From: Candidatus Gastranaerophilales bacterium | GTDB lineage: Bacteria > Cyanobacteriota > Vampirovibrionia > Gastranaerophilales > Gastranaerophilaceae | Length of the DNA: 38,673 nt | Direction: 5' to 3' | NCBI GenBank assembly: GCA_905236055.1 | Contig: CAJOOA010000096.1 | Span: 1 to 38,673 of the forward strand | Shown: piece by piece, positions 7,680 through 38,507 of the stretch | Layout of the letters: each line of letters starts with the position of its first letter | How positions within the stretch are numbered: the first letter of the stretch is position 1 | Program-made: the position numbers and the translations under genes | Notes under the pieces: model-generated | What the model was told of the DNA's origin: nothing | Seen by the model: only the letters and a program-made list of their open reading frames with translations | The model's database searches: none

Positions 7680-9590
7680 TTGAATAATATATTTCAAAAA
7701 AACATATCTGCACTTATTCAAAAAAATCCGGAACTGGCAGCAAGATTGGGCGGATTTGTTCCGACAAAATTGCCGGAATTGGTGCAGGAAAACGGAAGTT
7801 ATAATTTAAAATACAATGGTTTATTTATACACAATAAACAAAATCCGCTGGGAGAAGCACAGGAAATATTCTCTATGGCGACCAACGAACCCGTTGCAAT
7901 TCACGTGATTTACGGAATCGGCTTGGGGTATTTATTCCAAATTGCTTGCCGAAACTCGTTGGGAACAGTTATTCTCTACGAACCGGATTTAAACGTCTTG
8001 TGGACTGCATTTACTTTGGTTGATTTTTCCGATGATATTTTGAAAAATAATGTGTTTCTAACTGATAATTTAGAGGATACGTCTTCTGAAATATACAAAA
8101 AATCAAATACATTAAACACTCCACAGTTATTATCTCTCCCCTCTGTGAGAGAGCTTGATAAAGATGGCTTTGAAGAATTAGTTAGAATTTTACAGGAAAT
8201 AGTCGGTTCATATTCTCTTGATTTAAAATTTACTAAAGAGAAATTTTATCCTTCACTTAAAATGCTTATCCAAAATATTCCGTCACTTATTAAGGAACCG
8301 CCGCTTGCAAGATTTAAAGATATTTATAAAGGCAAAACCGCCGTTATAGTATCTGCAGGCCCTACCCTTGACAGGAATATAGATACTTTGAAAAAAAATC
8401 GCGATAAATACATATTATTTACCGTTGGAACCGCAGTAAAAACTCTGTATCAAAACGGATTAAAACCGGACTTCTTATGCATTATTGAAACATATAATTC
8501 ATCAAAACAGGTAGAAGGACTTGATTTGAGCGATGTTTATTTTATAACCGAACCTTACGCAAGTCCTGAACTCAGGAATTTCAAATACAAAAAAACATTT
8601 TCTCATATTTCCGCTAATTCACCGATTAACAATTTCTGGACTGAAATTTGCGGAGAAAATATTGAAGAATACTGGACAAAAGGAACTGTTTCATATACAG
8701 CAATAAATTCCGCAAGAATTTTGGGCTGTTCTAAAATTGTCCTTGTCGGTCAGGATTTGGCATACGTAGAGGGACAGTGCTACAGCAAAGATTCAGCATA
8801 TAAAGATTTGAGCTGTGAATATAACCATGAAACCAAAAAATGGGAAATTACCGCAAAAGATTTTGATTCATTTGCAATGGCAATATCCCCGTCTTCCGAC
8901 ATTGAAGTCGGCAGAGCAACTGCTAGGCGCAGATTAGAGCGGTTAAACAATTCACTTTATTATGTAAAAGGTATTCAGGGTGATATGATTCCGACAGAAT
9001 CAGTTTATGCCGCTTTTGTAAAACCGCTCAGCGAGTACGCAGAACATTTTAAAGGAATAAAATACATAAATACTTCTCTTGTAGGTGCTCAAATTAACGG
9101 GTATGAAAATATGCCATTGGAAGAAGCCCTAAAAGATTCTCCCGTCATTGAGAATACAGATTTTGATACAACGTTCAAGTATGACATCGATAAAATAGTT
9201 GAAAATCTTGATAAATCGGCAAATAGTCTGAACGAGTCCTTAAAGCTCATTGAAGACGGAAAACAAGTACTCAGGAATTTATTAAATAACCTAAAACGTC
9301 GAAAAACCGTTGACGAAGATGTTTTAAAGCTGCTAAAAAAAGTTTCACTTACCTATCTTAATTTAACCAATGATTTTTCCGACAAAAATAAGTTATACGA
9401 TTTAATAAGTGCCGCAGGGAAAATAGATTTAGATTATGAAATGAAAATGATGCGGAGCTTTGATTATGAGAGTGTTTCCAGAATAGCTGAAAAGATTATG
9501 GAGTATTTTAATAACGCAGAAACTTGTATAAACGAAATAGTTTTAATGATTAAAGGTGTACTGAATGAAAGTATTAATTCAAAGAGTTAA
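7680..9590 (+). CDS. Maf/DUF115-type protein (motility-accessory-factor-like glycosyltransferase)
   Basis: This 636-residue cytoplasmic protein has the Maf/DUF115 (6-hydroxymethylpterin pyrophosphokinase MptE-like) core. VSAGPTLDRN at 224-233 and GQDLAY at 357-362 are the two family signatures. Maf proteins of Campylobacter, Helicobacter, Aeromonas and Clostridium transfer pseudaminic or legionaminic acid to flagellin. Here a pseudaminic-acid-type pathway lies about 20 kb downstream, which fits, but no flagellin or chaperone is present, so the acceptor is unknown. The C-terminal 130 residues are helical and charged. The start is TTG 7680, with GAGGGAG seven bases upstream and no usable ATG. 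It overlaps dtd by 26 bases. Confidence 0.8.
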   Translation: MNNIFQKNISALIQKNPELAARLGGFVPTKLPELVQENGSYNLKYNGLFIHNKQNPLGEAQEIFSMATNEPVAIHVIYGIGLGYLFQIACRNSLGTVILYEPDLNVLWTAFTLVDFSDDILKNNVFLTDNLEDTSSEIYKKSNTLNTPQLLSLPSVRELDKDGFEELVRILQEIVGSYSLDLKFTKEKFYPSLKMLIQNIPSLIKEPPLARFKDIYKGKTAVIVSAGPTLDRNIDTLKKNRDKYILFTVGTAVKTLYQNGLKPDFLCIIETYNSSKQVEGLDLSDVYFITEPYASPELRNFKYKKTFSHISANSPINNFWTEICGENIEEYWTKGTVSYTAINSARILGCSKIVLVGQDLAYVEGQCYSKDSAYKDLSCEYNHETKKWEITAKDFDSFAMAISPSSDIEVGRATARRRLERLNNSLYYVKGIQGDMIPTESVYAAFVKPLSEYAEHFKGIKYINTSLVGAQINGYENMPLEEALKDSPVIENTDFDTTFKYDIDKIVENLDKSANSLNESLKLIEDGKQVLRNLLNNLKRRKTVDEDVLKLLKKVSLTYLNLTNDFSDKNKLYDLISAAGKIDLDYEMKMMRSFDYESVSRIAEKIMEYFNNAETCINEIVLMIKGVLNESINSKS

Positions 9591-27624: not shown

Positions 27625-28617
27625 ATGTTAAACGGAAAAACAATATTGATTACGGGCGGAACAGGAAGTTTCGGGAAAAAGTTTACGCAAACAGTTCTTG
27701 CAAAATATCCGAATGTAAAGAAAATAATTATCTATTCAAGAGATGAGTTTAAACAATTCATGATGCAAAACATGCCTGAATTTAAACCTTATCTTGAACA
27801 ACTAAGATTTTTTATCGGTGATGTCAGAGATAAAGAGCGTATGATGAGGGCTTTTGAAGGTGTTGACATTGTTGTACATGCTGCTGCACTCAAACAAGTT
27901 CCGGCATGTGAATACAATCCGTTCGAAGCAATCAAAACCAATATTCATGGGGCACAAAATGTTATAGATTGCGCTATCGATTCCGGCGTCAAAAGAGTCG
28001 TTGCCTTGTCAACCGATAAAGCTTGCGCACCAATTAACCTCTATGGGGCGACAAAACTTTGTTCTGATAAATTGTTTATTGCAGGTAATGCTTATTGCGG
28101 AGATAAAGATACCCGTTTTGCTGTTGTAAGATACGGTAATGTAGCAGGTTCAAGAGGGTCTGTTATTCCGTTCTTCCAAAAGCTTGTAGAAGAAGGCGCA
28201 AAAGAACTTCCGATTACCGATATGAGAATGACAAGATTCTGGTTAAAATTGGAACAAGCCGTAGAGATGGTATTAGAAGCAATCGAACATATGCAAGGCG
28301 GAGAGCTTTACGTTAAGAAAATACCTTCAATGAGAATGCCGGATTTGGCAAAAGCAATTGCTCCGAATTTGAAGGTTACAGAAGTCGGTATCCGTCCGGG
28401 TGAGAAAATTCACGAACAAATGATTACCAAAGAAGATGCGCCAAATACTATCGAATTTAAGGATTTCTATATTATTCTTCCGCAGATTGATTTGGAAAAT
28501 ATTGAGTACAAATATCCAAATGCGAAACGTGTAGCTCCGGACTTTGAGTACCATTCCGGTAACAATGACAGGTGGCTTACTGTCGAAGATATGAAAAAAT
28601 TAATCAGTGAAATATAA
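27625..28617 (+). CDS. pseB: UDP-N-acetylglucosamine 4,6-dehydratase (inverting), PseB
   Basis: PseB carries out the first step of pseudaminic acid synthesis: it dehydrates UDP-GlcNAc and inverts C5. This 330-residue short-chain dehydrogenase has the NADP-binding loop GGTGSFG (11-17), the catalytic group Thr 130-Asp 131-Lys 132 and Tyr 140/Lys 144 (STDKACAPINLYGATK). This is the arrangement of Helicobacter FlaA1 and Campylobacter PseB, as opposed to the retaining PglF/WbpM type. KQVPACEYNPFEAIKTN and GEKIHEQMI are further family segments. The ribosome site AGAGGG precedes ATG 27625. It is followed by pseC. Confidence 0.92.
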   Translation: MLNGKTILITGGTGSFGKKFTQTVLAKYPNVKKIIIYSRDEFKQFMMQNMPEFKPYLEQLRFFIGDVRDKERMMRAFEGVDIVVHAAALKQVPACEYNPFEAIKTNIHGAQNVIDCAIDSGVKRVVALSTDKACAPINLYGATKLCSDKLFIAGNAYCGDKDTRFAVVRYGNVAGSRGSVIPFFQKLVEEGAKELPITDMRMTRFWLKLEQAVEMVLEAIEHMQGGELYVKKIPSMRMPDLAKAIAPNLKVTEVGIRPGEKIHEQMITKEDAPNTIEFKDFYIILPQIDLENIEYKYPNAKRVAPDFEYHSGNNDRWLTVEDMKKLISEI

Positions 28618-28686: not shown

Positions 28687-29802
28687 ATGCAGACTACTGA
28701 AATAAAAAAATACGGTTACGGAAAGCAAAATATTACGGAAGACGATATAAATGCTGTCGTTGAGGTGTTAAAATCACCTTATTTGACTTGCGGTCCCAAT
28801 GTGAAAGCTTTTGAACAGGCAATATGTGACTATACTGGCGCAAAATATGCCGTTGCTGTAAACTCTGCGACATCGGGGCTTCATATAGCAATGATGGCAG
28901 CCGGAGTCGGAGCTGGAGACGAAGTTATTACATCTCCTATGACATTCCTCGCAAGTGCAAATTGCGCAAGATTTTGCAGTGCAGATGTAAAATTTGCAGA
29001 TATTGAACCCGATACAGCAAACATTAATCCGGAAGAGATAAAAAAACACATTACGCCGAAAACCAATGCTGTCGTTCCGGTTCATTTTGCGGGACAATCC
29101 TGCGATATGCAAAGAATTTATAAAATTGCAAAAGAACACAATATGTATGTAATAGAAGATGCGGCACACGCAATAGGTTCCGATTATAAGGATACAAAAG
29201 TCGGATGCTGTAAATATTCGGACATGACCGTATTTTCATTCCATCCTGTTAAAACAATAACAACCGCAGAAGGCGGTGCAGTTACTACAAATGATGAAGA
29301 ATTGTACAAAAAGCTTTGTGCATTCAGAGCACACGGCATGCACAAAGACAGCGAAATGGTTAATGATTGGCGTTATGAAATGAGAGAGCTCGGATATAAC
29401 TATAGAATGACAGACGTGCAAGCAGCACTTGGCATTTCGCAGTTAAAAAGATTAGATGCCTTTAAACAACGCCGGAGAGAAATTGTTGATTTTTATAATA
29501 AAAATTTAGGGCTTCCGCATTTAATTGAAAAAGACTTTTCTAATGCGTGCTTCCACCTTTATCCGATTTTGATTGATGACAGGAAGAAATTCTATTTTGA
29601 CTCAAGAGAAGTTGGATTGAATCTTCAAGTCCACTATATTCCGGTTCATACTCAGCCATATTATCAGGAACGGGGCTACAAATGGGGTGATTATCCCGTT
29701 GCGGAAAATTATTATAACCATACAATTTCACTTCCTTTATATCCTGATTTGACCGATGACGATTTAGAGGAAATTGTCAAACGCATTAAAAGTATAATTT
29801 AG
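28687..29802 (+). CDS. pseC: UDP-4-amino-4,6-dideoxy-N-acetyl-beta-L-altrosamine transaminase, PseC
   Basis: PseC is the second enzyme of the pathway, a PLP aminotransferase of the DegT/DnrJ/EryC1 family that aminates the 4-keto product of PseB. At 371 residues it has family length. Key segments are VNSATSGLHIA (PLP phosphate), IEDAAHAIG (Asp 158 with the stacking Ala/His) and SFHPVKTITTAEGGA, with the Schiff-base Lys 189. NYRMTDVQAALG and VHYIPVHTQPYY complete the substrate site. It follows pseB in the same direction. Confidence 0.92.
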   Translation: MQTTEIKKYGYGKQNITEDDINAVVEVLKSPYLTCGPNVKAFEQAICDYTGAKYAVAVNSATSGLHIAMMAAGVGAGDEVITSPMTFLASANCARFCSADVKFADIEPDTANINPEEIKKHITPKTNAVVPVHFAGQSCDMQRIYKIAKEHNMYVIEDAAHAIGSDYKDTKVGCCKYSDMTVFSFHPVKTITTAEGGAVTTNDEELYKKLCAFRAHGMHKDSEMVNDWRYEMRELGYNYRMTDVQAALGISQLKRLDAFKQRRREIVDFYNKNLGLPHLIEKDFSNACFHLYPILIDDRKKFYFDSREVGLNLQVHYIPVHTQPYYQERGYKWGDYPVAENYYNHTISLPLYPDLTDDDLEEIVKRIKSII

Positions 29803-29838: not shown

Positions 29839-29869
29839 ACACCCGAAATAATATTTGGAGCTTTATTTT

Positions 29870-30718
29870 ATGAAATTAGGGTTGGGGACTGTTCAGTTCG
29901 GTTGTAATTACGGTATTTCAAATAAAAAAGGACAAGTTACGGAAGATGAAATTGCCAAGATTCTTGATTATGCCCTAAGCGTCGGAATTGATACTCTTGA
30001 TACCGCAAGCTTGTACGGAAATTCCGAAGAAGTTCTCGGACGATTTAATCTTGACAATTTTAAAGTAGTAACAAAAACCGTTAAAGTCGACAAAACTCTG
30101 AGTAGAGATGAAAATTTAACCCGCTTTAGAGATGCGTTTTATCAATCACAAAAAAAGCTCGGCTATATCAAACTTCACGGACTTATGTTTCATGAATCAA
30201 CCGATTTATTGGGACAAATTGGTTCGGAACTCTGGGATTTGGTATGTGATTTCAAAGAAAAAGAATACGTTGATAAAATCGGAGTAAGTGTTTATACTCC
30301 TGAAACTCTTATTGAAATTATTGATAAGTTTGACATTGATATAGTTCAACTTCCGTTGAATATTCTTGATCAGAGATTTGTTTATCTTATGAAAGAATTA
30401 AAACAAAAAGGCATTGAAATAAACACCCGTTCGACATTCTTGCAAGGACTTCTTTTAATGAAAGCCGATGAAATAAATCCGTATTTTGATGAAATAAAAT
30501 CTGTTTTGAACAGTATTCCGGAACCTAAGCTTGCCCATGCTTTACAATTTATAAATAATATTGAAGAAGTTGATAAAATAATTGTCGGAACAACTTGTGT
30601 TAATGATTTGAAAGAAATTGTATTAAATATTTGTAAAGAAATCACAAAGTTGGATTATGGTAGATATATAATAAATGATGAAAAATTTATATTACCGCAA
30701 AATTGGAAATTAAAATGA
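29870..30718 (+). CDS. Aldo/keto reductase
   Basis: This is an NADPH-dependent aldo/keto reductase of 282 residues. The N-terminus LGLGTVQFGCNYGISN, the active-site region GIDTLDTASLYGNSE (Asp and Tyr of the tetrad), the lysine in TKTVKVDK, HGLMFHE (His) and the barrel strand IGVSVYTPETL are visible. In nonulosonate islands such reductases accompany the synthase genes and may reduce a keto intermediate to a modified sugar; the substrate is unknown. The ATG at 29870 has GGAG upstream, and an in-frame TTG five codons earlier overlaps that site and is rejected. Confidence 0.82.
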   Translation: MKLGLGTVQFGCNYGISNKKGQVTEDEIAKILDYALSVGIDTLDTASLYGNSEEVLGRFNLDNFKVVTKTVKVDKTLSRDENLTRFRDAFYQSQKKLGYIKLHGLMFHESTDLLGQIGSELWDLVCDFKEKEYVDKIGVSVYTPETLIEIIDKFDIDIVQLPLNILDQRFVYLMKELKQKGIEINTRSTFLQGLLLMKADEINPYFDEIKSVLNSIPEPKLAHALQFINNIEEVDKIIVGTTCVNDLKEIVLNICKEITKLDYGRYIINDEKFILPQNWKLK

Positions 30719-30742: not shown

Positions 30743-31876
30743 ATGAAATATTGTACAAGATGCATACTTCCACAGACACATGAAACAGTTCAATTTGACG
30801 AACAAGGAGTTTGTAATGTTTGTCGTCAGGCAGAACAAAAACATAAAAAAGTAGATTGGAAAGCAAGAGGGGAAATGCTTGAAAAGATTCTGGATAAATA
30901 TAGGAACAAAGGCGAATATGACTGTATTATACCATTTTCAGGCGGAAAAGACAGCGCATTTCAGTTGTGGTATGCCGTAAAAAAATTAAATTTGAAACCC
31001 CTTGTCATTAGGTATAATCACTGGGGATTACGTCCGATTGTGTACAAGAACTGCGATAAAGTATTCAAAAAACTCGGCGTTGATGTTTTGGAATTCCAGT
31101 CTAATTGGAAGGTCGTAAAAGCCCTGATGCTCCAATCATTAATTGATACCGGTGATTTTTGCTGGCACTGTCATACCGGTGTATTCGCAAACACAATGAG
31201 AATGGCAGTAAGGTTTAATATCCCGCTTGTAATATGGGGCGAATCACCTGCAGAATACAGAGCTTATACTTCTTTTGAAGAAATTGAAGAACTTAATAAC
31301 AAGAGTTTCTCTGAAATGATTAATCTCGGTATAAGCGCTGACGATATGTATAAAAAGTTCAAGGGTAAGATTCCTAAAAGAGATTTGCTTGCATTTGAAT
31401 TTCCATCAGAAGAAGAACTCAAAAAATTGGATGCAAAATCTATTTGGTTGGGGAATTACATAAAATGGGATACAAAAGAAAATGTAAAAATAATAAAAGA
31501 AGAACTTGGCTGGGAAGGTGCTGAAGTCGAAGGAATTCCTCCCGAATACGATTACGAAAAAATAGAATGTAAATGGCAAGGAGTAAGAGATTGGTGTAAA
31601 TACATAAAAAGAGGACACGGAAGAACAAATCACTTATGTTGCATAGATATTCGTGCCGGAAGAATGGACAGAGACTACGCACTTAAACTTGCTGAAAAAT
31701 ATGACGGGAAACGCCCTGCATCATTAGATTTATTCTTGGAAATGCTTAATTTGACCGAGGACGAATTTATTGATATTCTTCAAAAAAATCAGGTCGAAGA
31801 TTGGGGCTTTGACAGAGATCACATAGTAAAAGGTAAAGAACTTCCGGATATGAAAGAATGGAGCAGAGTTTTTTAA
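30743..31876 (+). CDS. pseA: N-acetyl sugar amidotransferase (PseA/WbpG type)
   Basis: This ATP-dependent amidotransferase of the PP-loop family has 377 residues. A zinc-ribbon-like CTRC (Cys 4, 7) and CNVC (Cys 24, 27) precede the PP-loop FSGGKDSA (65-72). The pair CWHCH and CCIDIRAGRMDRDYA later in the protein are typical. In Campylobacter PseA is required to convert the acetamido group of pseudaminic acid to acetamidino; in Pseudomonas WbpG performs an analogous amidination. This points to an acetamidino-modified nonulosonate. The glutaminase subunits HisH/HisF-like, needed by WbpG, are not seen here. It is followed immediately (no gap) by a GNAT gene. Confidence 0.85.
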   Translation: MKYCTRCILPQTHETVQFDEQGVCNVCRQAEQKHKKVDWKARGEMLEKILDKYRNKGEYDCIIPFSGGKDSAFQLWYAVKKLNLKPLVIRYNHWGLRPIVYKNCDKVFKKLGVDVLEFQSNWKVVKALMLQSLIDTGDFCWHCHTGVFANTMRMAVRFNIPLVIWGESPAEYRAYTSFEEIEELNNKSFSEMINLGISADDMYKKFKGKIPKRDLLAFEFPSEEELKKLDAKSIWLGNYIKWDTKENVKIIKEELGWEGAEVEGIPPEYDYEKIECKWQGVRDWCKYIKRGHGRTNHLCCIDIRAGRMDRDYALKLAEKYDGKRPASLDLFLEMLNLTEDEFIDILQKNQVEDWGFDRDHIVKGKELPDMKEWSRVF

Positions 31877-32431
31877 ATGATTTATGACGAGGTTCTAAAA
31901 GGCAAAAATATTACGTTGAGAATGGTTGAATTGTCGGACTGTAATAAAAATTATTACGATTGGTTGAATGATAAAGAGACCAATCAATATATGGAAACTC
32001 GTTGGAGTGAACAAAGTATAGAAAGCATTAAAGATTTTGTTACTTCTATAAGGAATTCGAATCACAGTTATTTATTTGCAATTATTTATGACGGCCAACA
32101 TGTCGGAAACATAAAGATTGGACCGATTCATCCGATATACAAACATGCTGATGTGAGCTATTTTATCGGTAATAAAAATGTTTGGGGCAGGGGAATCGCA
32201 ACCGAAGCTATTATATTGGCTACAAAGTTTGCATTTGAAGTGCTTAAATTAAACAAGCTTCAGGCCGGTGCTTTTGAACAAAATGTCGGAAGCCAAAAAG
32301 CACTATTAAAAGCCGGTTATAAACAGGAAGGGATTTTCAGAAAAAAAGTTTTTTTAACTTCGCCCGAAAATTATTGTGATATATATGAATATGGGATTTT
32401 ATCATCAGAATACAAAAAGGAGTTGCCATGA
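31877..32431 (+). CDS. GNAT N-acetyltransferase (RimJ/RimL type)
   Basis: This 184-residue acetyltransferase is of the GNAT fold. It opens LKGKNITLRMVELSDC, has DWLNDKETNQYMETR, the acetyl-CoA-binding segment GNKNVWGRGIATEAIILA (R/Q-x-x-G-x-G/A type) and LQAGAFEQNVGSQKALLKAGY. One GNAT is needed as PseH to N-acetylate the 4-amino sugar; this is one of three GNAT domains in the cluster and not obviously the closest to known PseH. It overlaps the next gene by four bases (ATGA) and begins directly at the pseA stop. Confidence 0.82.
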   Translation: MIYDEVLKGKNITLRMVELSDCNKNYYDWLNDKETNQYMETRWSEQSIESIKDFVTSIRNSNHSYLFAIIYDGQHVGNIKIGPIHPIYKHADVSYFIGNKNVWGRGIATEAIILATKFAFEVLKLNKLQAGAFEQNVGSQKALLKAGYKQEGIFRKKVFLTSPENYCDIYEYGILSSEYKKELP

Positions 32432-33750
32432 ACACAACAATACTAAATAATCAAAAATCAAAAGCATTACAAGACAAGGCCGTAAAATTAATACCGGGAA
32501 TGACACAACTTTTATCAAAACGCCCTGACAGATATTGCAGAGGTGTTTGGCCGACTTATTTTAAGAAAGCTTCCGGAGTTGAAATTATTGACTTGGATGA
32601 TAACAAGTATTTAGATTTTAGCATAGGAGGAGTGGGTGCTACAGTTTTGGGATATGCTGACCCGGATGTTAATGCGGCTGTAATCGACGTTATTAATAAC
32701 GGCTCTGCATCGACTCTCAATCCGCCGGAAGAAGTTGCCCTGGCGGAAAAACTTATAGAACTTCACCCCTGGGCAGATATGGCAAGATTTTCAAGAGGCG
32801 GCGGAGAAGCAATGTCCATTGCTGTTCGTATTGCCAGAGTCGCAACGGGGAAAGATAAAGTTGTATTTTGCGGTTATCATGGTTGGTGCGATTGGTATTT
32901 GGCAGCCAACCTCGGCAAAAAAGGTGCACTTGATGACCAATGGATTGCAGGTCTTAACCCAAACGGAGTTCCGAAAGGATTAACAGGTACAGCGATTCCT
33001 TTTTATTATAATGACATTGAAAACTTTAAAAAAGCAATTGCAGAAGCCGGAGATGATTTAGCAGCAATAGTTATGGAACCTATTCGAAACTATGAGCCAA
33101 CTCAGGAATTTATTGATGCAATTCATTCTGTAGCCCACGAAAAGAAAGTTCCGTTGATTATTGACGAGATAACTGCCGCATTTAGAATGTGTAACGGCGG
33201 CGCTCACTTGAAACTTGGGTTTAAACCTGATATGGCTGTATTTTCGAAAGCTCTCGGAAATGGTTTCCCATGTTCTGCAGTAATAGGCAAAAAATGGGTT
33301 ATGGAATACGCCCAGGATGCTTTTATCACATCTACAAACTGGACAGAACGAGTCGGTTCAGCTGCCGCTTTCGCTATGATAGAAAAATTTATAAAAGTAG
33401 ATGCTTCAAAACATATGCTTGCAATATCAGACAAAGTTTGGGAAGTATGGGAAACTCTTGCCCGAAAACATAATTTAAAAATCCATATAGGCGGGTTTAA
33501 ACCGTTGATACATTTTAGTTTTGAGGAAAACCATGCCGTTAATATTTCTTATTTCTCACAAGAAATGTTAAAGAGAGGATTCCTTGCCGGAAGCGGATTC
33601 TATGCGATGTATGCACATACTTTTGAAGATGTTGATAAGTATTCAAAAGCTGTTGATGAAGTGTTTGCAAATATTGCAAAACTCGGAAACAAGGTTGAAG
33701 AACATCTTGAAGGTTTACCGGCTGCAAGCGGCTTTGGGAGGGTAAATTAA
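32428..33750 (+). CDS. Class-III aminotransferase, glutamate-1-semialdehyde aminomutase-like
   Basis: This 440-residue PLP enzyme is of the HemL-like group. LIPGMTQLLSKRPD, FSRGGGEAMSIAVRIAR, GYHGW (149-153), Asp 246 in IIDEITAAFR and the Schiff-base Lys 274 in VFSKALGNGFP are visible. True HemL makes 5-aminolevulinate; here the context is a sugar operon, and HemL-like enzymes of this subgroup occur in nonulosonate and glycan islands, so I infer a sugar substrate (an extra amination of the nonulosonate or a keto-acid). It overlaps its neighbours on both sides (ATGA and TAATG), with AAGGAG before the ATG. Confidence 0.78.
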   Translation: MNTTILNNQKSKALQDKAVKLIPGMTQLLSKRPDRYCRGVWPTYFKKASGVEIIDLDDNKYLDFSIGGVGATVLGYADPDVNAAVIDVINNGSASTLNPPEEVALAEKLIELHPWADMARFSRGGGEAMSIAVRIARVATGKDKVVFCGYHGWCDWYLAANLGKKGALDDQWIAGLNPNGVPKGLTGTAIPFYYNDIENFKKAIAEAGDDLAAIVMEPIRNYEPTQEFIDAIHSVAHEKKVPLIIDEITAAFRMCNGGAHLKLGFKPDMAVFSKALGNGFPCSAVIGKKWVMEYAQDAFITSTNWTERVGSAAAFAMIEKFIKVDASKHMLAISDKVWEVWETLARKHNLKIHIGGFKPLIHFSFEENHAVNISYFSQEMLKRGFLAGSGFYAMYAHTFEDVDKYSKAVDEVFANIAKLGNKVEEHLEGLPAASGFGRVN

Positions 33751-34433
33751 TGTCAACGTTAGCTATTATCCCAGCAAGGGGCGGTTCAAAAAGAATCCCT
33801 AAAAAAAATATTAAAGATTTTTTAGGAAAACCCATGATATCTTATGCGATTGAAGCCGCAAAAAATTCAAAAATATTTGACGAAATAATGGTTTCAACAG
33901 ATGATTATGAAATTGCGGAAATTGCCAAATTACATGGTGCAAGTGTTCCTTTTATGCGTTCCGAGAAAACAGCAAGCGATACAGCAACTACTTTTGATGT
34001 TTTAAATGAAGTGATTTGTGAATACAAAAAACAAGGAAAACAGTTTGATATAACTTGTTGTATTTATCCATGTGTTCCTTTTTTAAAATCTTCAACATTG
34101 AAAGATGCTTTATCGAAAATGGACGGTTTTGACGGTTTAATGCCGGTATGTAAATATCCGGTACCGATTGAATGGGCTATGAGAATAGAAAACGGGCTGC
34201 TTGTCCCAAATGACAGAGCTGCGCAAAATATACGTTCTCAAGATATCGAAACTAAGTATTTTGATGTCGGAATGTTTTATTTTTGCAAAACAGAAAAGCT
34301 TTATGAAAATAATTCCATGTGCCCGAACAGGACCGCCGCCTACATAATTGATGAGTCACAGTGTCAAGATATTGATACAATGGAAGATTGGAATGTCGCA
34401 GAACTAAAATATAAGGCACTATATGGAGTATAA
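33750..34433 (+). CDS. pseF: Pseudaminic acid cytidylyltransferase, PseF
   Basis: PseF activates the nonulosonate to its CMP-sugar for transfer. This 227-residue cytidylyltransferase has the nucleotide loop LAIIPARGGSKRIPKKN (4-20), VSTDDYEI, and the acid-sugar site near ERDxxTAxD-like segments (SDTATTFDV). It matches the PseF subfamily rather than NeuA in length and in DVGMFYF. Neither PseF nor NeuA/LegF specificity can be proven by eye. It overlaps the next gene by 11 bases and the previous one by one. Confidence 0.86.
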   Translation: MSTLAIIPARGGSKRIPKKNIKDFLGKPMISYAIEAAKNSKIFDEIMVSTDDYEIAEIAKLHGASVPFMRSEKTASDTATTFDVLNEVICEYKKQGKQFDITCCIYPCVPFLKSSTLKDALSKMDGFDGLMPVCKYPVPIEWAMRIENGLLVPNDRAAQNIRSQDIETKYFDVGMFYFCKTEKLYENNSMCPNRTAAYIIDESQCQDIDTMEDWNVAELKYKALYGV

Positions 34434-35211
34434 AAGAGGGCTTAAACTTTGGTCAGTAAATACGGATTACTATTATAATGAAGCAATCCGACTTTTTGAT
34501 GCCGGAGTTTACGATTATATAGAGCTTTACATTGTACCCGAAACTCTTGAAACACTGCCAAAATGGAAAAGGTTAAATGTAGGGAATGGAATTCCTTTCA
34601 TTATTCACAATGCGCATTTTGCTCAATGCTTCAATCTGGCGAAACAGGGAAAAGCTGAACGAAACAGAGAAATATATGAGCAGACAAAACAATTTGCGGA
34701 TGAATTGAATGCAAAATACATTATTTTCCATGGCGGAATCGATGGTGATATAAGAGAGACCGCAGTTCAATTATCACTGTTTAATGAACCGAGAGCCCTA
34801 ATTGAAAATAAACCTTATGTAGCACTTCCGAACAAAATGGGAGGAGAATTCTGCAGAGGATATAATATTGATGAAATAAAATTAGTTATGGATACGGCAA
34901 TTTGCGGATTTTGTCTTGATTTTGGGCATGCTATTTGTGCGGCAAACTCACTCGGGGTAAATGTCTATGATTATTGCAAAGACTTTTTGCAATTAAATCC
35001 AATCATGTTTCATCTGACAGATTTGAATGATATAACTTCGCCTTATGACTCACATTTACATTTGGGTTACGGGCAATTGGATTTTACTCAAATTTTACCC
35101 ATGATTCCTGACGGAAGTTATGTAACATTTGAAACAAACAAAAACTCAAAAGAAAATCTAAACGATTTTGCAGATGATATGAACTTTTTATTAAATTATA
35201 AAATATCATAA
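34423..35211 (+). CDS. TIM-barrel sugar isomerase/epimerase-like protein
   Basis: This 262-residue protein is of the AP-endonuclease-2/xylose-isomerase-like TIM barrel superfamily. Metal-ligand positions appear in order: HNAHF, FHGG, IENKP (Glu), DFGHA (Asp, His), HLTD, HLHLGYGQLDF and FETNK (Glu). Proteins of this superfamily isomerise or epimerise sugars or hydrolyse DNA; the sugar island favours the former. I know of no assigned role for it in pseudaminic or legionaminic acid synthesis, so it may be a new step or modification. It starts within pseF. A perfect inverted repeat covers its stop codon. Confidence 0.72.
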   Translation: MEYKRGLKLWSVNTDYYYNEAIRLFDAGVYDYIELYIVPETLETLPKWKRLNVGNGIPFIIHNAHFAQCFNLAKQGKAERNREIYEQTKQFADELNAKYIIFHGGIDGDIRETAVQLSLFNEPRALIENKPYVALPNKMGGEFCRGYNIDEIKLVMDTAICGFCLDFGHAICAANSLGVNVYDYCKDFLQLNPIMFHLTDLNDITSPYDSHLHLGYGQLDFTQILPMIPDGSYVTFETNKNSKENLNDFADDMNFLLNYKIS

Positions 35212-35223: not shown

Positions 35224-35263
35224 TACCTTATTTTATGTCATTTAGCAAGTGCTGACTAATTTT

Positions 35264-35269
35264 TATAAT
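35264..35269 (+). promoter_or_regulatory. -10 box of the second GNAT gene; predicts leaderless mRNA
   Basis: A perfect TATAAT is followed by six bases and the ATG at 35276. No Shine-Dalgarno sequence is present. The -35 region is weak (TTTAGC, 35241-35246). Confidence 0.5.
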
Positions 35270-35275
35270 GAACAA

Positions 35276-35722
35276 ATGTTCAATATAAGATTGGCAAATG
35301 AGACAGACATAAAACAAGTTTTTGAGCTTTCGAATGATGAATTAGTGAGGGCAAATTCAATCAACAAGGATAAAATTGAATGGGAAGACCACGTAAATTG
35401 GTTTAATCAAAGAATAAAAAATATGGACGAACCTTTTTATATAGCGGAAACTCCTGATAGTGATTTTGTTGCTCAAATCAGGTTTAACAAAGAAGAGGAT
35501 GGCTTTGTAATTTCAGTAAGTATTGATAAGAATTTTCGAGGAAAAGGATTCGGAGGACAAATTATCTCTGCAGCATCAGCAAAACTTGGTAAAAAACCTA
35601 TAATAGCGTACGTAAATACAAACAATATTTCTTCTCAGAAATCATTTATAAAAGCGGAATTTGTCTTGGATGGGGATAAAATAATAAATGACGAAACATA
35701 TTTAAGGTATGTTTTAAGCTAG
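35276..35722 (+). CDS. GNAT acetyltransferase, PseH-like
   Basis: This 148-residue GNAT resembles PseH and the acetyltransferase half of PseG-PseH fusion proteins: IRLANETDIKQVFELSNDELVRANS, then HVNWFNQRI, VAQIRFN, and the acetyl-CoA loop FRGKGFGGQII, ending NISSQKSFIKAEF. PseH acetylates UDP-4-amino-4,6-dideoxy-AltNAc, step three of the pathway. I judge it the best PseH candidate by pattern, but two other GNATs are nearby. The ATG is six bases after TATAAT (no Shine-Dalgarno); an in-frame GTG at 35249 lies upstream of that box and is rejected. It overlaps the convergent XRE gene by nine bases. Confidence 0.75.
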   Translation: MFNIRLANETDIKQVFELSNDELVRANSINKDKIEWEDHVNWFNQRIKNMDEPFYIAETPDSDFVAQIRFNKEEDGFVISVSIDKNFRGKGFGGQIISAASAKLGKKPIIAYVNTNNISSQKSFIKAEFVLDGDKIINDETYLRYVLS

Positions 35723-36037
35723 CTGTTTAGCAACCGTATAAAGTATTTTTACTTTTTCATCTTGAGACTTTTGTATAATATCTTTAAGCTCATTTTCCAA
35801 AACATTTCTGTCCTGCAAATTATCAAATGTGAACAAATCCTGCAGTGAACAATTAAAAATTTCGGTAAATTTGATTAATGTTTTAAACGAAGGAAACGAC
35901 TTGCCTGTTTCAATCAATGTAACCTGGCGTTGGTTAATATCAGCCAACTCTCCTAATGTAAATTGGGTGATATCTATGCTATTCCGAAGTTCTTTTATTC
36001 GTTTTCCGAATAATAATTTTGTTTCTTCTTCGTTCAT
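35714..36037 (-). CDS. XRE-family helix-turn-helix regulator
   Basis: This small DNA-binding regulator of 107 residues has a Cro/C1-type helix-turn-helix, about residues 8-65: GKRIKELRNSIDITQFTLGELADINQRQVTLIE, then KTLIKFTEIFNCSLQDLF. The C-terminal 35 residues are a charged helix, probably for dimerisation. It is encoded against the pse genes in the middle of the cluster, divergent from the GNAT-WbqC gene. AT-rich palindromes flank it (36055-36066, 36111-36122), suggesting control of its own promoter and of the neighbouring gene. ATG 36037 has GGGG upstream. Confidence 0.85.
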   Translation of the reverse strand: MNEEETKLLFGKRIKELRNSIDITQFTLGELADINQRQVTLIETGKSFPSFKTLIKFTEIFNCSLQDLFTFDNLQDRNVLENELKDIIQKSQDEKVKILYTVAKQLA

Positions 36038-36192: not shown

Positions 36193-36207
36193 AAGGAGGG
36201 CTGATTT

Positions 36208-37464
36208 TTGGATAACTATAAAAATATTGAACTGAAAAAAATAGGAAGTACAGAAATAAAAAATACTTTTTCGTGGCTGCTTGATCCTGTATTCAGAAAG
36301 CTTTTTTTAATGCAAGATGAGCCGGTTTGGGAAAAACACATTGCTTACTTTGAAAAAGTTAAAAATGATCTGACACAAAGAGTTTATGCAATATACGCAG
36401 GCGAGAATCATATCGGGAATTGCGGTTTTAAATACATAAAAAATAAAACAGGTGAATTGTGGATATATATTGGTGACGGAAATTATAGAGGCAGGCATCT
36501 TGCAAAGCCCGCATGTAATGAATTGATAACAAAAGGAAAACAGGAACTTGGTATAAATAAAATTTTTCTTCATGTCGCAAAAACAAATTATGTTGCTATC
36601 GGACTTTATGAGTCATTAGGATTTCGGTTATCTGAAATGAATAATGAAGATGTCGAAATTTGGGGCGATATAATTGATACAATTTTTAAATATGAATTAA
36701 GTTTAGAAGAAACAACAAAAGTAGCAATAATGCAGCCGACATTCCTTCCTTGGCAGGGATTTTTTGAACTTATTATAAATAGTGATAAATTTATTTTCCT
36801 TGATGATTTTCAATTTTGTCCGAGGTCGCATCATACCAGAAATAAGTTATTTGTGGCAAAAAATAATGTTGATTTTTACAGCGTAAATATAAAGAAGCAT
36901 AAAAATCAGGATATAAAATTAAATGAAGTTGAGCTGAGTGAGGATAATAAGTGGAAAAAAGACATATTAAAAAGAATAAGTTTTGTTTATTCAAAGGCAG
37001 AATTTTATCAACATTATTATCCCGTAGTTGAAAAATGGTTGTTGGCGGATTATAAATATCTGGCAGATATCAATATTGCGGGAATTAAGATGTTTTGTGA
37101 TATTCTCAGTATAAAAAAAGATTTTATGTACAGTTCTGATTATACAAAAGAAACCGGTTCAACTTCCGTAAGAACAAAAAGAATAATCGATTTAACAAAA
37201 TGGGCAAATGCGGATGAATATCTGTGCGCATTTGGTTCATTTGATTACATGAAAGAGGATGGATATGACTACAAAAAATATCCTGTAGTTTTTCAAAACT
37301 ATATTCCTAAACCATATAAACAAATTCATTCCCAAGAATTCGTCCCATATTTGTCTATTTTAGATGCACTATTTAATATTGGAGGAGAAGAAACATTAAA
37401 ATTAATTCAAAACGGAACAAAAAATTGGCTAACTTGGAATGAAAGAGATAAATTTTCAATTTAA
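36208..37464 (+). CDS. GNAT-WbqC fusion protein
   Basis: This is a two-domain protein of 418 residues. Residues 1-165 form a GNAT acetyltransferase with the acetyl-CoA loop IGDGNYRGRHLAKPAC and KTNYVAIGLYESLGF. Residues 171-418 form a WbqC-family domain: VAIMQPTFLPWQGFFELI, FIFLDDFQF and HHTRNKL, the opening signature of that family, ending with a region rich in Lys/Tyr. WbqC-like proteins occur in O-antigen and glycan gene clusters and their reaction is not firmly known. The fusion joins an acetylation step to this function in one polypeptide. The start is TTG 36208 with a perfect AAGGAGGG seven bases upstream. It lies between the XRE gene and pseI. Confidence 0.8.
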   Translation: MDNYKNIELKKIGSTEIKNTFSWLLDPVFRKLFLMQDEPVWEKHIAYFEKVKNDLTQRVYAIYAGENHIGNCGFKYIKNKTGELWIYIGDGNYRGRHLAKPACNELITKGKQELGINKIFLHVAKTNYVAIGLYESLGFRLSEMNNEDVEIWGDIIDTIFKYELSLEETTKVAIMQPTFLPWQGFFELIINSDKFIFLDDFQFCPRSHHTRNKLFVAKNNVDFYSVNIKKHKNQDIKLNEVELSEDNKWKKDILKRISFVYSKAEFYQHYYPVVEKWLLADYKYLADINIAGIKMFCDILSIKKDFMYSSDYTKETGSTSVRTKRIIDLTKWANADEYLCAFGSFDYMKEDGYDYKKYPVVFQNYIPKPYKQIHSQEFVPYLSILDALFNIGGEETLKLIQNGTKNWLTWNERDKFSI

Positions 37465-37496: not shown

Positions 37497-38507
37497 ATGA
37501 GTACTTATATTATTGCGGAAATGTCTGCTAACCATTGCGGAGATAAAGAGCTAGCAAAAAAGATTATATTGAAAGCCAAAGAGATTGGGGCGGATGCCGT
37601 TAAAATACAAACATACACGGCTGATACAATAACAATTGACTGCAACAACGAAGAATTTCAAATAAAAGATAAAGACAGTCTTTGGAATGGTGAAAATTTG
37701 TACAAACTTTATCAAAAGGCATACACTCCTTGGGAATGGCAGGGAGAATTAAAACAATATGCTGACAGCATTGGAATAGATTTCTTTTCAACGCCGTTTG
37801 ACATTACTGCAGTTGATTTTTTGGAAAGCATAAATGTTCCGATATATAAAATAGCAAGCTTTGAGGCAATAGATTATCCTTTGATAAAATACGCTGCAAA
37901 ATTAGGCAAACCTATGATAATATCGACCGGAATTTCATCTTTTGAGGAGATTCAGGAAGCGGTTGATGCTTGCAAATCGGTCGGGAATAATGACATTACC
38001 CTTTTGAAATGTACATCTGCTTATCCGGCAAAAATTGAGGATATGAACCTTATCACAATAAAAGATATGTACGAAAAATTTGCACCTCAGGGAGTAAAAA
38101 TAGGGTTAAGCGATCACTCTATGAGTATTGTCCCTCCAATAACCGCAGTGGCTCTAGGTGCAACCGTTATTGAAAAACATTTTACGCTTGACAGAGCATT
38201 AGGCGGAGCTGATGCAGAATTTTCTTTAAATCCGGAAGAATTCTCTCAAATGATTCAGGCAGTCAGAGAAACCGAAAAGGCCATGGGAAAAGTTGATTAT
38301 TCAATCAATGAAAAAAACAGAAAATTTGCCCGCTCCTTGTACGTCGCTAAAGATATTAAGAAGGGTGAAAAGTATACTCCCGAAAATATCCGTTCAATTC
38401 GTCCGTCAAACGGCTTGCACCCTAAATATTATGAAGAAATATTGGGCAAAACCGCCAAATGTGATTTAAAATTCGGCACCCCGATGAAAAAAGATTATTA
38501 TATTTAA
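37497..38507 (+). CDS. pseI: Pseudaminic acid synthase, PseI (NeuB family)
   Basis: PseI condenses phosphoenolpyruvate with 2,4-diacetamido-2,4,6-trideoxy-altrose to form the nine-carbon nonulosonate. This 336-residue protein has the NeuB TIM barrel: EMSANHCGDKELAKK, ADAVKIQTYT, FFSTPFD, KIASFEAIDYPLI, LLKCTSAYPA, GLSDHSMS and VIEKHFTLDR. It ends with an antifreeze-like SAF domain (about 275-336, RSLYVAKDIKKGEKYTPENI). The TADTITID segment fits PseI better than sialic or legionaminic synthases, but the call between PseI and LegI is by pattern only. It is the last pse gene before a glycosidase. Confidence 0.9.
   Translation: MSTYIIAEMSANHCGDKELAKKIILKAKEIGADAVKIQTYTADTITIDCNNEEFQIKDKDSLWNGENLYKLYQKAYTPWEWQGELKQYADSIGIDFFSTPFDITAVDFLESINVPIYKIASFEAIDYPLIKYAAKLGKPMIISTGISSFEEIQEAVDACKSVGNNDITLLKCTSAYPAKIEDMNLITIKDMYEKFAPQGVKIGLSDHSMSIVPPITAVALGATVIEKHFTLDRALGGADAEFSLNPEEFSQMIQAVRETEKAMGKVDYSINEKNRKFARSLYVAKDIKKGEKYTPENIRSIRPSNGLHPKYYEEILGKTAKCDLKFGTPMKKDYYI

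Follow-up and report, generated by a model that had tools for sequence, protein, structure and literature searches.

The gene at positions 36208-37464 (forward strand) of the analysed window, a stretch of 38,673 nucleotides belonging to a 1.76 Mb draft genome (96.7% complete) of Candidatus Gastranaerophilales bacterium, encodes a protein of 418 amino acids in which two operon neighbours, a GNAT acetyltransferase and a WbqC protein, are joined in frame, a fusion which we take as genuine and which was found in one draft genome. The gene order GNAT-WbqC-PseI recurs outside the window, the fused GNAT belongs to a clade of WbqC partners, the predicted WbqC fold matches that of BshC, and in one related cluster the WbqC slot is taken by an ATP-grasp ligase. 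From these results we infer that the WbqC half may form an amide on an amine of a pseudaminic-type nonulosonate, an explanation which, taken as a whole, is given a chance not far short of even.

The open reading frame is uninterrupted, starts with TTG and is preceded by the ribosome-binding site AAGGAGG (36193-36199, forward strand; 8 nt 5' of the start), as the earlier note had described when it reported a strong ribosome site in front of a complete GNAT domain joined to a complete WbqC domain, and both domains were recovered by Pfam. The GNAT domain (residues 1-165; 36208-36702), placed by tree in the WbqC-partner clade, matches Acetyltransf_1 (PF00583; 1.1e-11, residues 43-139, 45.5 bits against a cut-off of 20.7) and Acetyltransf_3 (3.9e-10, residues 9-140). 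Its acetyl-CoA loop, of the pattern R/Q-x-x-G-x-G/A, reads NYRGRHLA with a histidine for one glycine, likewise as in the separate GNAT of locus L063 (NYRGKHLS), that of locus L065 reading NYKGKGLS. A junction of five residues (36703-36717) leads to the WbqC domain (residues 171-418 plus stop; 36718-37464), which was delimited by Pfam, alignment and model and matches PF08889 at 5.3e-53 over residues 176-396 (180.5 bits, curated cut-off 21.3). The match covers profile positions 1-216 of 218, hence the homology extends well past the first motif, at which the earlier note had considered it might end. Residues Q176, R211 and Q372 (Q7, R42 and Q203 of the domain) occupy invariant columns in an alignment of 116 WbqC sequences, and D199, Y338, Y370 and D386 are conserved as well; in its completeness, its invariant residues and its location in a glycan locus the domain resembles the rest of the family, from which it differs by sitting behind a GNAT.

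The fusion ends 32 bases before the gene of the pseudaminic acid synthase PseI (37497-38507; TIGR03586, 489 bits, cut-off 340). Further upstream, and like PseI on the forward strand, the PseB dehydratase (27625-28617; TIGR03589, 533 bits) and the PseC aminotransferase (28687-29802; TIGR03588, 491 bits) are followed by an aldo/keto reductase (29855-30718), a WbuX/PseA-type N-acetyl sugar amidotransferase (30743-31876; TIGR03573, 365 bits), a first acetyltransferase, GNAT1 (31877-32431), which has its relatives in other clusters holding an aldo/keto reductase and a class III aminotransferase, a class III aminotransferase resembling glutamate-1-semialdehyde aminomutase (32428-33750), the CMP-pseudaminate synthetase PseF (33750-34433; TIGR03584, 256.7 bits), an AP_endonuc_2 TIM barrel (34423-35211) and a second acetyltransferase, GNAT2 (35249-35722). 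Between GNAT2 and the fusion a small HTH_3 regulator, assigned by Pfam, is encoded on the reverse strand (35714-36037). PseB, PseC, PseF and PseI all exceed their curated cut-offs, which identifies the region as a pseudaminate cluster, and PseI and the two further GNATs are the neighbours which had been claimed for the fusion. Since the genome yields nine Flagellin_N matches and the window encodes a homologue of Maf-type flagellin glycosyltransferases (MptE-like plus Maf N-terminal domain; 7680-9590, forward strand), flagellin is likely the acceptor of the sugar. Another genome from this family encodes a GNAT2-type acetyltransferase fused in frame to PseI (L201:9065-10540).

The pairing of GNAT and WbqC is older than the fusion. 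Among the nearest relatives, locus L063 carries the order GNAT, WbqC, PseI with a gap of 4 nt between the first two genes, its GNAT and WbqC being 53% and 60% identical to the respective halves of the fusion, and the same order was found in L065. In a tree of 57 GNAT rows the fused GNAT falls into a clade of 12 loci (support 100/99), 11 of which possess WbqC. In one of these, the window, the two form the fusion; in the other ten WbqC directly follows the GNAT, whereby adjacency in L070 and L075 was settled by hand, over-read GC-rich frames having masked it. Among other GNATs in WbqC-centred loci, 3 of 14 are adjacent to WbqC, a difference of Fisher p 1.5e-4 with counts taken by hand from the tree and relatedness left uncorrected. 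The WbqC loci of the clade, mostly also beside PseI, span Pseudomonadota, Thermodesulfobacteriota and gut MAGs. These 11 loci lend good support to the earlier proposal of a joint action of GNAT and WbqC in a pseudaminic-type pathway; its further part, an intermediate common to both, is plausible.

In a wider sample of 76 loci, almost all of which had been chosen by WbqC sequence, 53 have PseI no more than about 10 kb from WbqC. The phylum holds 39 PseI places over the cut-off, and at 4 of the 38 places inspected (G000, G356, G369, G425) WbqC is near PseI; WbqC is thus optional in the Pse clusters of the phylum. Sampling of loci began either from WbqC similarity or from PseI, the tallies include related genomes, and the comparisons rest on draft genomes and predicted models. 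In some clusters (L074:9193-9990; L069, L071, L072, L095) the gene immediately upstream of WbqC encodes not a GNAT but a formyltransferase or else an acyltransferase of the hexapeptide type, and the GNAT-WbqC Pse cluster of L065 includes a gene for a membrane dipeptidase of peptidase family M19 (L065:6673-7608). In a Campylobacter jejuni isolate a WbqC gene is located between pseF and pseG of a flagellar glycosylation locus (L122:6665-7360), and in a related genome a WbqC of 58-60% identity, situated away from PseI, is split over two frames (L056:9948-10717), possibly by decay or sequencing error.

Structure prediction points to a reaction class for the WbqC domain. A model built from 116 sequences reached a pLDDT of 97.2 and a pTM of 0.93, and its best structural match by VIA-align was BshC (4wbd; Z 14.9, 226 of 249 residues, 3.2 A), which in bacillithiol synthesis is assumed to couple cysteine to an amino-sugar amine. 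Class I lysyl-tRNA synthetase came second (Z 12.4), tyrosyl- and arginyl-tRNA synthetases followed at Z 8.0 and below, and an earlier model of the fusion from 14 sequences had returned the same top two in the same order. The predicted model possesses a Rossmann-type fold like that of BshC and class I aminoacyl-tRNA synthetases, with most of the domain covered and scores well above the lower-ranked rows. The likeness to BshC concerns the fold over nearly the whole domain, whereas sequence similarity is not detectable, the profiles of the two families giving a hhalign probability of 0.8% and the fusion giving no match to PF10079 (BshC) at E <= 0.001; moreover, WbqC comprises about 240 residues as compared to about 530 for BshC. 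A Foldseek search with the WbqC model gave weak matches and none at E <= 0.001, and among PDB sequences no solved WbqC structure was found. The histidines of the HIGH motif are absent from WbqC, the matching stretch being QPTFLPWQGF, which we take to correspond to the HIGH stretch of tyrosyl-tRNA synthetase from the structural alignment ranges and the numbering of that enzyme; as these histidines are absent, classic adenylate chemistry is unproven in WbqC, and the fold suggests the reaction class without proving it.

In 7 of 39 general glycan loci (L004, L008, L014, L025, L034, L048, L054) WbqC has a PIG-L/LmbE deacetylase gene as its immediate neighbour, an arrangement reminiscent of the BshB-BshC pair, BshB being a member of the PIG-L family. 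In the long-flank set PIG-L was found in 1 of 86 loci, and among Pse loci lacking WbqC in 11 of 39, tallies which, like those for PseG and ATP-grasp given below, were obtained with profiles built here from few sequences. A deacetylase and ligase module of the BshB/BshC kind was therefore rejected for Pse clusters, PIG-L being rare in the long-flank set and common in Pse loci without WbqC. The parallel is not specific and, for the family at large, is a weak hint only.

The twelfth member of the GNAT clade, L254, is a close relative of the window cluster and combines a reductase, a methyltransferase, a class III aminotransferase, PseF, the TIM barrel, a GNAT of the same clade, an ATP-grasp_4 ligase and PseI, so that the ligase occupies the slot held elsewhere by WbqC. 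The best PDB relatives of this ATP-grasp_4 protein include L-amino acid ligases. The swap was seen in one locus here; the two PseI loci with an ATP-grasp_4 ligase, a small number, both lack WbqC, and no ATP-grasp relative of the L254 protein was found beside PseI in 69 PseI loci with WbqC. In Shewanella oneidensis MR-1 the ATP-grasp_4 protein SfmE is encoded in the nonulosonate operon and flagellin carries mono-N-acetyl pseudaminic acid with a second moiety (PMC3765264), and Clostridium botulinum flagellin carries, as quoted in PMC5207245, a legionaminate with an N-methyl-glutamyl amide. The comparison with these ligases is one of position, the L254 enzyme sharing the slot between a clade GNAT and PseI and SfmE sharing the nonulosonate operon, whereas in fold and family they are unrelated to WbqC and their function in these clusters is putative. 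Fold, swap and the two flagellin precedents speak for an amide-forming reaction at a nonulosonate amine. The fusion itself, which the earlier note had regarded as a direct functional clue, is a weak one when taken alone, occurring in a single genome; more weight attaches to the pairing of the two genes, to the likeness of the fold to BshC and to the exchange of WbqC for an ATP-grasp ligase.

Based on this, a reaction scheme can be suggested. Both halves would serve one decoration step: the GNAT half would transfer an acetyl group from acetyl-CoA to an amine, and the WbqC half would join an acyl or aminoacyl group, through an amide bond, to an amine within that sugar pathway, probably by way of ATP-dependent activation of the acid, which would yield a decorated pseudaminic-type nonulosonate for flagellin. 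The acylated amine may be N5 or N7 and the step may precede or follow PseI. The GNAT may acetylate the sugar or cap the added group. In its general form the proposal, which is tentative and somewhat less assured, is that WbqC proteins make up a so far unrecognised class of small amide-forming ligases, with a fold like that of BshC and class I synthetases, whose targets are amines on the surface sugars of bacteria; the GNAT-WbqC pair would then provide flagellar pseudaminic-type acids with an acyl or aminoacyl group and cap or complement it.

Among the competing explanations the one that survives best, although we judge it rather unlikely, assumes the fused GNAT to be a PseH-type acetyltransferase of the C4 amine, with WbqC tailoring the nonulosonate in another way and the fusion securing co-expression or channelling only. 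PseH (TIGR03585) is the closest NCBIfam model of the fused GNAT, but the score of 42.2 bits stays far below the equivalog cut-off of 93.1, and by the curated model the fused GNAT is not PseH. Its clade includes a fusion to PseG, with WbqC beside it, in Shewanella sp. ANA-3 (PseG, 301 bits), and clade GNATs hold the same position in Arsukibacterium and Rheinheimera; PseH and the PseG-PseH fusions thus share with the window protein a GNAT of the same fold family within a pseudaminate cluster. The differences are the score, the partner, which is WbqC rather than PseG, and the presence of a separate PseH-like protein, as the window contains GNAT2, which groups with GNATs that in its phylum are fused to PseG or adjacent to PseI. 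The L063 cluster and Shewanella-type clusters with PseG-GNAT fusions showed no further GNAT, hence the GNAT may there carry out the PseH step and WbqC something unrelated. In the window, GNAT2 is the better candidate for this step.

Next, the fusion was considered as the product of neutral read-through between two genes of an operon, or of an assembly error, in which case gene order alone would be meaningful. The two genes are merely 4 bases apart in L063 and 17 in L065, and the survey for further genomes with the fusion beside pseI, as had been called for, found none in the genome samples: WbqC stands alone in 144 relatives and 386 phylum genomes, and no second fusion turned up among 65 genomes of the genus, 382 from the family to which the L063 genome belongs and 395 from the phylum of the L084 genome, samples which overlap in part. 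A genome scan with the whole fusion as query returned no relatives, and GNAT was absent from every other WbqC protein examined; long WbqC frames in GC-rich genomes were rejected as fusions, their apparent extensions resembling over-read frames. Against this stands the junction itself. In L063 it reads GAA TGA TTGT ATG ACT AAA GTA, the GNAT gene ending with GAA TGA and the WbqC gene opening with ATG ACT, whereas the window reads GAA GAA ACA ACA AAA GTA, 9 nt instead of 13 lying between the conserved codons. Because stop and start are thus both lost with the frame kept, a single-base error, the frameshift which the earlier note had wanted checked, is unlikely as the origin of the fusion, with the reservation that one genome is concerned. 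Inspection of the sequence identified no usable start codon between residues 144 and 175, and the family-invariant WbqC residues are intact. In addition, the functional pairing is based on the split pairs and not on the fusion. Read-through or error was judged improbable.

The genome, a 96.7% complete draft, yields no PseG over the cut-off (best 24.6 bits as compared to 153.55). That WbqC substitutes for this UDP-sugar hydrolase, an idea to which the missing PseG and the common fusions of PseH-like GNATs to PseG lend themselves, is very improbable and was rejected, as 28 of 52 WbqC-bearing Pse loci also have PseG (19 of 30 without WbqC), so that neither excludes the other, and the TIM barrel is the better candidate. 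PseG is present in none of the 6 Pse clusters with the AP_endonuc_2 barrel and in 47 of 76 without it (p 0.005, the loci being related). The barrel, also found in L063, L065, L074, L196, L200, L201, L055 and L254, matches endonuclease IV structures by profile (1.6e-11), and nine residues are invariant in eight barrel sequences (H65, H103, E128, D166, H169, H197, D209, H211 and E237), which we take to match the metal-ligand set of endonuclease IV. Since it sits where PseG-GNAT sits elsewhere, the barrel appears, judged by sequence, to be a candidate UDP-sugar hydrolase replacing PseG.

WbqC proteins are widespread in glycan loci, and to our knowledge, within a narrow literature search, no paper describes their reaction. 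If the barrel does act as a PseG substitute, this would close a gap in the pseudaminate pathways of gut bacteria. If amide formation by WbqC holds true, it would be the first reaction assigned to the family and would connect the decoration of amino sugars with the chemistry by which bacillithiol is made, and a testable WbqC reaction would help to read O-antigen, capsule and flagellar gene clusters.
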